A DNA stretch of 64,000 bases, from assembly GCF_001865575.2 (NCBI RefSeq), contig NZ_CP017561.2, positions 62,001 to 126,000 of the forward strand. Direction: 5' to 3'. The notes under the pieces are model-generated. The model saw only the letters and a list, made by a program, of their open reading frames with translations, made no database searches and was not told the origin of the DNA. The DNA is from Paraburkholderia sprentiae WSM5005. Its GTDB lineage: Bacteria > Pseudomonadota > Gammaproteobacteria > Burkholderiales > Burkholderiaceae. Positions 10,487 through 27,097 of the stretch are shown here, piece by piece. The translations under genes were made by a program, and so were the position numbers. How positions within the stretch are numbered: position 1 is the stretch's first letter; each line of letters begins with the position of its first letter.

Positions 10487-10805
10487 TCATTCCGCCATTG
10501 AGTCAACAGGGCGGCTAAACGGCGTCGGCGAAGCACGAAGAGAAGGACTGTGTGCGCAGCTGACGACCTCTTTAGCCGCATTTATAGTGAACCGCGGGCC
10601 TGGGGCCAAGGGTTCGCGCGCCCGCAATCGAGTCAGCAAATCGGCGCGTGAAAGGGTGTGAAACCGGGTGCAACGTGTTCGGGATGCCTCGGCGCGGTTC
10701 AGTGTGCATCGAAGACCGCGACGGCGTCAGGCGCAAAGTATAGCGGAAAACTCCGCGCGGCAGCGGTGCGGGCGGTGCAGCGCGAGGGGCTCGAGTCCTC
10801 GCGGA
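10487..10805. other. Intergenic region between slmA end and metX start
   Basis: This 319-base gap holds the upstream region of metXW (read leftward) and the 3' end region of slmA. A TATAAA-like hexamer lies near 10582-10588 on the minus strand, but I cannot pair it with a good -35 box. I found no riboswitch resembling known SAM classes and no stem plus T-run terminator. Confidence 0.4.
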
Positions 10806-24737: not shown

Positions 24738-25622
24738 TCAATACACCCCCGGCACCCCTGGCGGCCGCGTCTTGAAGCGCTTGTGCACCCAGTAATACTG
24801 CTCGGGCATCAGCGGAATCTGCTCTTCGAGAAACTCATTCATGCGTCGCGCATCTAGGTCATCGTCGCCGGTCGGATAGTCGTCCCAAGGTCTGAAGACC
24901 TTGAGCCGGTAGCCCTTGTAATTCGGCAGCACTTCGCCGATGAACGGCACGACCTGCGCGTGCCCGACCTTGGCGAGACGGCCGACCGCCGTCAGCGTGC
25001 AGGTCGGCACGCCGAAGAACGGCACGAACGTCGAATTGCGCGCGCCGTAGTCCATGTCCGCGCCGAGCATCACCGGTTTGCGTTCGCGCAGCCAGCGCAG
25101 CACGATGCGCGCACTGTCCGCGCGGCTCGCCATGTCGGCGCCGAAACGCGCGCGCGCCGCTTTCGCGACTTGCTCGAGCTGCTGGTTCGACATCGGCTGA
25201 TAGAGCGAGCCGCACTGGCGCTTGAGCGAGTAGTTCAGAAAGATCGAACCGGCCTCGATGCCGACAAAGTGAAAGCCGAGAAACAATGTGGGTGGCAGGT
25301 TCGGGTCCGTCAGGTCGATCGCGCTGTCGAGCTGGATCAGCTTCTCCAGCTTCTTCGCCGAGCCGAACCACTGCACGCTGCGCTCGACATAACTGCGGAT
25401 CGCGTGACGGAAGTGCTTCTGCGCGACGTCCTCGCGGCGCTCTTCGCTCCAGTCGGGGAAGCACAGCTTCAGATTCGTGTGAACGATGCGCTTGCGGCGG
25501 CTCGGGATCTGGTAGAGCAACCAACCGAAGCCGTCGCCGAGACGGGCGACGAATCCATACGGCAACAGCGCAAAGAGTTTAAGCAGCCCGATCGCGAGCT
25601 TCGCGCCGTAGCGGCTCAGCAT
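24738..25622 (-). CDS. lpxL: LpxL/HtrB-family lipid A acyltransferase
   Basis: This inner-membrane enzyme adds a secondary acyl chain (usually lauroyl) to Kdo2-lipid IVA. The 294-residue protein has an N-terminal membrane helix (about residues 8-25) and the catalytic HxxxxE motif, His118 to Glu123 in [10 protein letters not shown]. It also has the family [11 protein letters not shown] and [12 protein letters not shown] signatures. The ATG at 25622 fits family length. It is divergent from metK and is followed by dapF on the same strand. Confidence 0.9.
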
Positions 25623-25705
25623 GCAGCCTCCGCGCGGGCGGCGCTGCAGGGGGCGAAATGGTGGACAACGGACAAGATGACGTGAAGCCGCACGCGTTGG
25701 ACTCT

Positions 25706-25732
25706 GTGACATTCAAAGGAAGTCGCTATAAT
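25706..25732 (+). promoter_or_regulatory. Probable sigma70 promoter for metK
   Basis: TATAAT at 25727-25732 matches the -10 consensus exactly. GTGACA at 25706-25711 is a possible -35 box with a short 15-base spacer. Transcription would begin near 25738, giving a leader of about 170 bases. Confidence 0.6.
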
Positions 25733-25735
25733 AAA

Positions 25736-25906
25736 GGCTTCGCCGAGTTAATAGACAACTTGCGGGGCGAAGCCGGCGGGTGCGGTCCATGGTTTCCATG
25801 GGTCAAGCGTCCATCGGTAAGGTAATCCGCTAAAGCGTCGCCGCTTCAGACTCCCGAAGTCGGCTACGTGGAACGCAACCGTAACCACTAAACAGGAGTC
25901 TGCAAC
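25736..25906 (+). promoter_or_regulatory. Structured metK leader with predicted anti-Shine-Dalgarno (candidate riboswitch)
   Basis: The leader contains several perfect helices. GGCUUCGCC (25736-25744) pairs with GGCGAAGCC (25766-25774). GGUCCAUGG (25784-25792) pairs with CCAUGGGUC (25796-25804) across a UUU loop. AAGCG (25833-25837) pairs with CGCUU (25842-25846). CAGACUCC (25847-25854) is exactly complementary to GGAGUCUG (25895-25902), which contains the metK ribosome-binding site. The same element can instead pair locally, GACU (25849-25852) with AGUC (25858-25861). Two mutually exclusive states that hide or free the ribosome-binding site suggest translational control, perhaps by S-adenosylmethionine. 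I do not recognise it as a known SAM class. Confidence 0.6.
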
Positions 25907-27097
25907 GTGGCAAACGACTATCTCTTTACTTCCGAATCCGTTTCCGAAGGCCATCCCGACAAAGTCGCGGACCAGATCTCGGACGCGATCCTCGACGCCA
26001 TCCTCGCTCAAGACAAGTACTCGCGTGTCGCGGCGGAAACGCTGTGCAACACGGGTCTGGTCGTGCTGGCCGGTGAAATCACCACCACCGCGAACGTCGA
26101 CTACATCCAGATCGCGCGCAACACCATCAAGCGCATCGGCTACGACAACACCGACTACGGCATCGACTACCGCGGCTGCGCGGTGCTCGTCGCTTACGAC
26201 AAGCAGTCGCCGGACATCGCCCAGGGCGTGGACCGCGCGCACGACAACAACCTCGACCAAGGCGCGGGCGACCAGGGCCTCATGTTCGGTTACGCATGCG
26301 AGGAAACACCGGAACTGATGCCGCTGCCGATCCACTTGTCGCACCGTCTGGTCGAGCGGCAGGCGAATCTGCGCCGCGACGGCCGTCTGCCCTGGCTGCG
26401 TCCGGACGCGAAGTCGCAGGTCACCGTGCGCTATGTCGACGGCAAGCCGCACGCGATCGACACCGTCGTGCTGTCCACCCAGCATTCGCCGGACATCGAG
26501 CTCGACACGCTGCGCGAAGCGGTGATCGAGGAAGTGATCAAGCCCACGCTGCCGGCCGAGCTGATCAAGGGTGACATCAAGTTCCTCGTGAACCCGACCG
26601 GTCGCTTCGTGATCGGCGGTCCGCAGGGCGATTGCGGTCTGACGGGCCGCAAGATCATCGTCGACACGTATGGCGGCGCGGCGCCGCACGGCGGCGGCGC
26701 GTTTTCGGGGAAAGACCCGTCCAAGGTCGACCGCTCGGCAGCCTACGCCGGCCGCTACGTCGCGAAGAACATCGTGGCCGCGGGCCTCGCGTCGCGTTGC
26801 CTGATCCAGGTGTCGTATGCGATCGGCGTCGCCCAGCCGACCTCGGTGATGGTCAACACGTTCGGCACCGGCCGCGTGTCGGATGCGACGATCACGGAGC
26901 TCGTGCGTCAGCATTTCGACCTGCGTCCGAAGGGCATCATCCAGATGCTCGACCTGTTGCGCCCCGTCTATGAGAAGAGCGCGGCGTATGGTCACTTCGG
27001 CCGCGAAGAGCCGGAATTCACCTGGGAAGCCACCGACAAGGCGCTCGCGCTCGCCGAAGCGGCAGGCACCGAGCCGGTCGCGGCGCTCGCCGACTAA
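25907..27097 (+). CDS. metK: S-adenosylmethionine synthetase
   Basis: MetK makes S-adenosylmethionine from methionine and ATP. The 396-residue protein starts (GTG) with [18 protein letters not shown] and has the signature hexapeptide GAGDQG and the [10 protein letters not shown]-loop-like nonapeptide. The start is supported by GGAG eight bases upstream. It is monocistronic: a long structured leader precedes it and a strong terminator follows at 27123. It supplies the methyl donor for many enzymes, including the methyltransferases in this window. Confidence 0.98.

Follow-up and report, generated by a model that had tools for sequence, protein, structure and literature searches.

How the supply of S-adenosylmethionine (SAM) is regulated in Betaproteobacteria is a question raised anew by the leader of metK, the gene of SAM synthetase, in Paraburkholderia sprentiae WSM5005 (Burkholderiales). 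Leyn 2014 described metK in beta-proteobacteria as having no known regulator and reported that attempts to find one had failed (PMC4239095). No description of a metK riboswitch of Betaproteobacteria was recognised in the searches of open full texts, and the main texts of PMC8632094 and PMC11109978 make no mention of "metK". We analysed a stretch of 64,000 nucleotides (contig NZ_CP017561.2, positions 62,001 to 126,000, referred to here as the window), in which metK is preceded by a divergent lipid A acyltransferase gene. The initial annotation of this leader, made from its sequence, had proposed a riboswitch of a possibly new class in which mutually exclusive helices hide the ribosome-binding site. 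Its coordinates proved exact and the bases it named lie where it placed them; overall, what it observed is real, while its interpretation was half right.

We compiled 110 metK leaders, 80 from named genomes and 30 from further relatives, which represent 105 distinct 190-base ends. A fixed pattern is present in 109 of them, the exception being L088: GUUAA, a few bases, GACAACUUGC or a near form of it, the second strand of helix P1, a linker and GCUAAA(G/U)CGU. The pattern ranges over Paraburkholderia, Burkholderia, Caballeronia, Trinickia, Pandoraea, Cupriavidus, Polynucleobacter, Dechloromonas and several metagenome-assembled genomes. The conserved core, overlooked by the initial annotation, comprises P1 and an H-type pseudoknot, P2 (25754-25765 with 25827-25839); its parts are listed in Table 1.

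Table 1. Positions, within the window, of metK, of the elements of its leader and of a second aptamer-like element (SD, Shine-Dalgarno sequence).
Feature	Position	Strand	Remarks
Probable -10 box TATAAT	25727..25732	+	By sequence
P1 5' strand GGCUUCGCC	25736..25744	+	Partner 25766-25774; covaries
Third strand GAGUUAA	25745..25751	+	G25747 at the place of SAM-II U10 / SAM-V U8
P2 outer 5' strand GAC	25754..25756	+	Partner GUC 25837-25839
P2 inner 5' strand UUGCGG	25760..25765	+	Partner CCGC(U)AA 25827-25833, U25831 left out
P1 3' strand GGCGAAGCC	25766..25774	+	Partner 25736-25744
Linker with hairpin 25784-25804	25775..25826	+	Length and sequence variable, not conserved
P2 3' strand CCGCUAAAGCGUC	25827..25839	+	
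Anti-SD arm GCCGCUUCAGACUCC	25840..25854	+	CAGACUCC within the arm pairs with the SD
AGUC, weak local anti-SD partner, candidate anti-anti-SD	25858..25861	+	-1.2 kcal/mol
SD AGGAG with GGAGUCUG	25894..25902	+	
metK, S-adenosylmethionine synthetase	25907..27097	+	GTG start; three domains above Pfam cut-offs
Second SAM-II-like aptamer, before metX	10558..10651	-	Rfam SAM_alpha 13.6 bits; R1 13.9 bits

We next consider whether the core helices are supported by comparison. Alignment A2 consists of 52 distinct short-linker cores; from 169 parsed relatives, 107 were left out because of their linker length, 6 because of inserts in the loop of the third strand and 2 as duplicates, and finally L069 and L199 as mis-parsed, while the rule that P1 be at least 5 cost no row as such. 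Standard pairs fill 97.3% of the P1 and P2 cells, compared with at most 51.9% when the partners are slid. Eight pairs carry double-sided changes versus 3.6 in shuffles, and 76 cells are double-changed versus 14.8 (s.d. 4.8), a value that none of 500 shuffles reached; the measure "further pair types" showed no excess over shuffles in A2 (158/500). Since the parser picked P1 on the basis of pairing and demanded the presence of UUGC and GCUAA, we recounted on five P2 pairs that it does not use. These are paired in 97.2% of cells (best slid value 71.3%) and contain 34 double-changed cells versus 3.0 (s.d. 3.5), again with no excess in "further pair types" (213/500). Two of these five pairs, beside UUGC, change jointly, appearing as GG/CC, AG/CU or GA/UC, and the outer end of P2 reads GAAC/GUUC in family f2 versus GAC/GUC. 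A covariation check on metK leaders had been proposed by the initial annotation; in the alignments used here both core helices, P1 and P2, covary. Folding of the single sequence is predicted to be better than that of shuffles for 25738-25915 (z=-2.19, 3/200 as good) and for 25738-25940 (z=-1.49, 15/200 as good), scores that favour a structured leader in a suggestive way only. The decisive evidence is comparative: by these alignments, the RNA of the metK leader is real and conserved, and it covaries.

The comparison also sorts the three local hairpins from which the initial annotation had started. The first, 25736-25774, is real; it is P1, formed by GGCUUCGCC with GGCGAAGCC, and covaries in relatives. 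The second, 25784-25804, exists (-8.2 kcal/mol alone) but sits in the linker, which measures about 15-20 bases in many relatives, and because this linker varies strongly in length the hairpin falls outside the conserved element. The third, 25833-25846 (AAGCG/CGCUU, -3.7 kcal/mol), likewise exists, overlapping the 3' strand of P2, but is not conserved: its CGCUU half occurs in 66 of the 68 leaders L001-L068 (Burkholderia relatives) and in only 8 of the 41 leaders L069-L110. As main structure, the latter two hairpins were rejected since they are unconserved in relatives.

Given a conserved core, we asked to which class of RNA it belongs. A search of the leader against Rfam, also proposed by the initial annotation, gave no match to a known class: Rfam 15 reported none at gathering scores over the whole window and none up to E=10 in 25400-26100. 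The initial annotation could not match the leader to known SAM classes either, but here our data disagree with it. The pseudoknot of SAM-II and SAM-V makes up its core, altered at a single position of the pocket, which makes the leader a variant rather than a new architecture, so that "may be undescribed" holds as far as Rfam 15 and the open papers go but not for the kind of RNA, which is that of SAM-II. SAM-II (RF00521, SAM_alpha) was defined as the metA motif by Corbino 2005, with Bordetella bronchiseptica among the organisms of a figure (PMC1273637), and Meyer 2009 described it as most common in Alpha-, Beta- and Gammaproteobacteria (PMC2704228). The metK leader shares with it P1 and pseudoknot P2, the left-out U, the third strand, the UUGC/GCUAAA pocket, an association with methionine/SAM genes, extra pairs beside UUGC (the P1a idea of PMC2258182) and a TATAAT-like box just 5' of P1, also seen for SAM-II (PMC1273637). 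SAM-II, SAM-V and the metK leader agree in how their parts follow one another, in the U left out, in three non-standard steps and in having a third strand, and SAM-V resembles the metK leader further in its pseudoknot core, ligand contacts and translational control (PMC6061858). Unlike SAM-II, the metK leader has G in place of U10, A instead of G after the two U of the third strand, a linker of up to about 70 nt from P1 to the 3' strand of P2, and an anti-SD platform rather than a terminator, and it goes unreported by Rfam's model. It differs from SAM-V by G in place of U8 and in layout, since the SD of SAM-V lies in or adjoins P2a whereas 51-81 nt separate core and start codon in 109 metK leaders.

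The kinship can be expressed in numbers. In a MAFFT alignment (A3) of 27 relatives with 14 RF00521 matches, hand-picked and 12 of them over the Rfam cut-off, one structure fits both groups: 96.2% of pair cells are formed, compared with at most 47.3% with partners slid, and 98 cells are double-changed versus 32.1 (s.d. 3.9) in shuffles, while for "pairs with a change on both sides" the excess over shuffles in A3 is not clear (59/500). R1, a covariance model from 35 metK cores with P1 alone paired, was run on 25 RF00521 loci and found 3 at E<0.01 and 10 at the right place at E<=1.1, missing 15; on 4 further RF00521 loci it found 2 at E<=1.3e-5. Because the metK leader stays below the SAM_alpha gathering score of 36 bits, we do not assign it to RF00521 in Rfam's sense of the family and class it instead as a variant of the SAM-II kind. 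That its fold and its kinship are those of SAM-II we regard as very probable. The SAM/SAH riboswitch (RF01727), which precedes metK in Rhodobacterales, and the SAH riboswitch (RF01057) serve the same pathway; neither matched in the window, nor in 25400-26100 up to E=10. Three relatives have an Rfam SAH riboswitch directly after metK (L082 2256-2333, L105 1976-2051, L097 2235-2347).

The ligand can be approached through the pocket residues. In the SAM-V crystal, U47 pairs with the SAM adenine and U8 touches U47 and not SAM; U20:A48.U9 faces the sulfonium, followed by U19:A49.U10, and A50 holds the aminoacyl end (PMC6061858). In the window, U25831 is the counterpart of the U that reads the adenine and A25834 that of the A that holds the aminoacyl end. 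Our count of the pocket left out L088, which has no core, and the mis-parsed L069, L181, L199, L130 and L132. Within it, U9, U10, U19, U20, U47, A48, A49 and A50 (SAM-V numbering) are kept in 57/57 distinct metK cores, although the invariance of UUGC/GCUAA is overstated because the parser partly required it. The U8 position is the exception, with G in 53/57 and U in 4/57 metK cores; the window has G25747. Among distinct other relatives the position is U in 15/21 and G in 6/21, and RF00521 cores have U in 19/19 and G in 0/19. We would expect G25747 to donate a hydrogen bond equivalent to that of U8. A different view is that on the same fold the change from U8 to G tunes or alters specificity, for example by tolerating SAH or another adenosine compound, and that metK answers not to SAM alone. 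The prevalence of G in metK cores (53/57 versus 0/19 in RF00521) and the precedent of SAM-aptamer variants with a new ligand, spermidine (PMC10853860), agree with this view; we nonetheless hold it to be quite unlikely, considering that no change is seen in the residues that face the sulfonium and the aminoacyl end, that U and G interchange within metK leaders as well as before other genes, and that U8 contacts U47 and not SAM in the account of the SAM-V structure (PMC6061858).

The RNA is widespread. At E<=0.1, R1 matched 229 of 349 genomes of the order, covering 113 of 147 genera, and gave no match in the other 120 genomes; across the phylum it matched 42 of 349 genomes at E<=0.1, with matches below 0.001 confined to the order and to one other family of the class (f8). 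The loci fetched from R1 matches, 30 best and 60 chosen to span families (6 shared), give 84 distinct places, and metK lies in the fetched stretch of 54 of these. A core could be parsed in all 60 chosen loci, with P1 doubtful in one (L181). A second R1 match in the genome of P. sprentiae itself (C3:144025-144071, E 0.078) was judged to be due to chance, as its pocket loop is missing and part of it falls within the end of a long open frame. In five loci (L100, L200, L081, L213, L214) a hairpin-like insertion separates the third strand from P2, and the fold evidently accommodates it. Pattern matching in L171 suggests two nearby RNAs in one locus, one of GATTTG type and one of GAGTTAA type.

Genes other than metK also carry the RNA, including metX of the window. 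The metX leader (minus strand, 10651-10558) scores 13.6 bits with Rfam's SAM_alpha model (E 1.1), below the cut-off of 36, and 13.9 bits with R1 (E 0.053 for the window); this R1 score ranks second in the window and is by itself not significant genome-wide because a chance place of the same genome scores 21.5 bits. Both metX and metW are above NCBIfam cut-offs. The metX leader looks like a bridge between the metK-type RNA and SAM-II, and it is plausible that it is an ordinary switch. Within 10651-10487 of the minus strand, GCGGCUAAA, in the 3' strand of P2 (10579-10571), is complementary over 9 bases to UUUAGCCGC (10519-10511); the latter in turn overlaps CCGCC (from 10514), able to pair with GGCGG (from 10496) close to the metX start. 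The RNA also precedes metZ in L193 and L215, the partial protein of the latter best matching O-succinylhomoserine sulfhydrylase. A pseudoknot RNA before metX or metZ recalls the metXZ element of Leyn 2014, described as six conserved regions with a pseudoknot of regions 1-4 and 2-6 and a terminator (PMC4239095). The window's metX leader and the two metZ leaders carry a SAM-II-like core; the authors of the metXZ element drew no link from it to SAM-II or metK (PMC4239095).

Further from methionine synthesis, the RNA stands before a MoxR-like AAA ATPase in L190 (Pfam AAA_5 over cut-off) and, by resemblance, in L191. At 15 of the 23 non-metK loci read, it stands before small proteins starting with MYDC or MFDC. 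These comprise about 85-115 residues (L180-L183, L202-L205, L207, L209, L219-L221, L234, L235), and those of L180 and L204 had no match in Pfam and NCBIfam. At class level, eight loci of family f8 (L248-L255) have a SAM-II-like RNA of GATTTA type before proteins of about 105 residues (RLAPIT..LLGG..HQP), and the protein of L248 had no match in Pfam and NCBIfam. One could imagine that RNAs with the G-for-U pocket are a separate class that shares the SAM-II fold and has specialised in feedback on SAM synthetase through another affinity or SAM/SAH balance, and that together with U-type sisters they form an unrecognised betaproteobacterial SAM regulon that extends to metZ, to MoxR-like ATPases and to small proteins without a known function; we consider this unlikely. 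The spread over unrelated genes bears as well on a feedback mediated by protein, in which MetK or another protein would bind the leader. Sinorhizobium MetK has been proposed to bind RNA, but the same account reports that no specific interaction of FLAG-MetK with SAM-II RNAs was detected (PMC9373788). With conserved residues that match a small-molecule pocket in addition, binding by a protein appears very improbable.

We then considered at which level a SAM-II-kind aptamer before metK would act. The metK transcript is expected to start at about 25738, the foot of P1. Among 120 distinct upstream stretches, 106 have a TATAAT-like hexamer (at least 5/6) no more than 24 nt before P1, with 20.3 expected from shuffles. 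A sigma-70 consensus scan of 25600-26000 returned no promoter; the best -35-like hexamer, GTGACA (25706-25711), is just 15 nt from TATAAT. No intrinsic terminator was found in the metK leader on the plus strand, and intrinsic termination is unlikely since runs of at least 5 T between core and start occur in 7 of 86 leaders.

The leader instead offers a means of masking the SD. As the initial annotation had stated, CAGACUCC (25847-25854) and GGAGUCUG (25895-25902) are perfectly complementary, with 8/8 pairs; when the upstream segment of the window leader was shuffled 200 times, an equally strong helix appeared once. GCCGC of the same arm is able to pair with GUGGC at the metK start codon, and 25839-25915 folds at -30.1 kcal/mol. 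We compared the 26 bases that follow the core with the SD region, using 200 mononucleotide shuffles per leader. Complementarity reached p<=0.05 in 67 of 142 distinct leaders (about 7 expected) and p<=0.01 in 39, counts that are not independent because the leaders are related; in 21 of the 142 the assigned start did not fall on a start codon, so that their SD windows carry less weight. Pairing was not significant in many of the 142 leaders, for example in most of Pandoraea and Cupriavidus. The complementary sequences differ between lineages, that is, they show compensatory change. Predicted SD accessibility was 0.199 versus 0.314 with the segment from core to SD shuffled (126 leaders), lower in 102 and at p<=0.1 in 54; the window's own leader (L001) alone was not significant in this test (p=0.2). 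With a helix able to mask the SD and compensatory changes across lineages, the proposal of a cis-regulatory RNA before metK, very probably a riboswitch, is supported.

How the aptamer would communicate with this helix is less directly visible. The local alternative GACU/AGUC named by the initial annotation exists but is weak; a larger local form, GCUUC/GAAGU, has -3.5 kcal/mol. Pairing of P1 3' strand GGCGA with a downstream UCGCC as an apo alternative was attractive in L105 (GGUGG/UCACC) and was dropped as unsupported because, by eye, it is not kept in L188. When P2 was treated as occupied (ViennaRNA, 148 leaders), predicted SD accessibility was unchanged, with a mean difference of -0.006 and shifts of more than 0.1 down in 6 leaders and up in 5. 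Mutually exclusive helices thus exist on paper as local alternatives, but two of the three hairpins are unconserved and occupation of the pseudoknot leaves modelled SD accessibility as it was. The same result would suit a leader that acts independently of any ligand, in which the SD hairpin fixes the level of translation and the upstream knot merely stabilises the mRNA, since folding predicts an SD that is largely closed in either state of P2, free or occupied (mean accessibility 0.21 each). Strong covariation and near-invariant pocket residues across many families of the order, which stability alone leaves unexplained, make such a leader a most unlikely one.

We therefore favor a translational riboswitch built on a SAM-II-kind aptamer whose ligand would be SAM; as P2 occupancy left predicted SD accessibility unmoved, the action of SAM on the anti-SD arm is one that we infer. 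SAM binding would close the P2 triplex, and the closed triplex would keep the 3' strand of P2 from other partners. The arm adjoining P2 would then be free to clamp both the SD and the start codon, and at high SAM this feedback OFF switch would lower MetK synthesis. On the sequence evidence presented here, we assign a probability of about 0.8 to SAM as the ligand and to repression of metK translation, that is, to a SAM-responsive OFF switch.

These findings bear on the regulation of SAM synthetase in Betaproteobacteria, a question left open by the 2014 survey (PMC4239095): these bacteria probably sense SAM directly and thereby control its synthesis. They suggest a wider distribution of the SAM-II fold than Rfam's model shows, and they present a pseudoknot aptamer joined to a translational platform tens of bases away. 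The tolerated change in the pocket may be used for studying ligand discrimination, and the RNAs at other loci would tie small proteins of unknown function to SAM.
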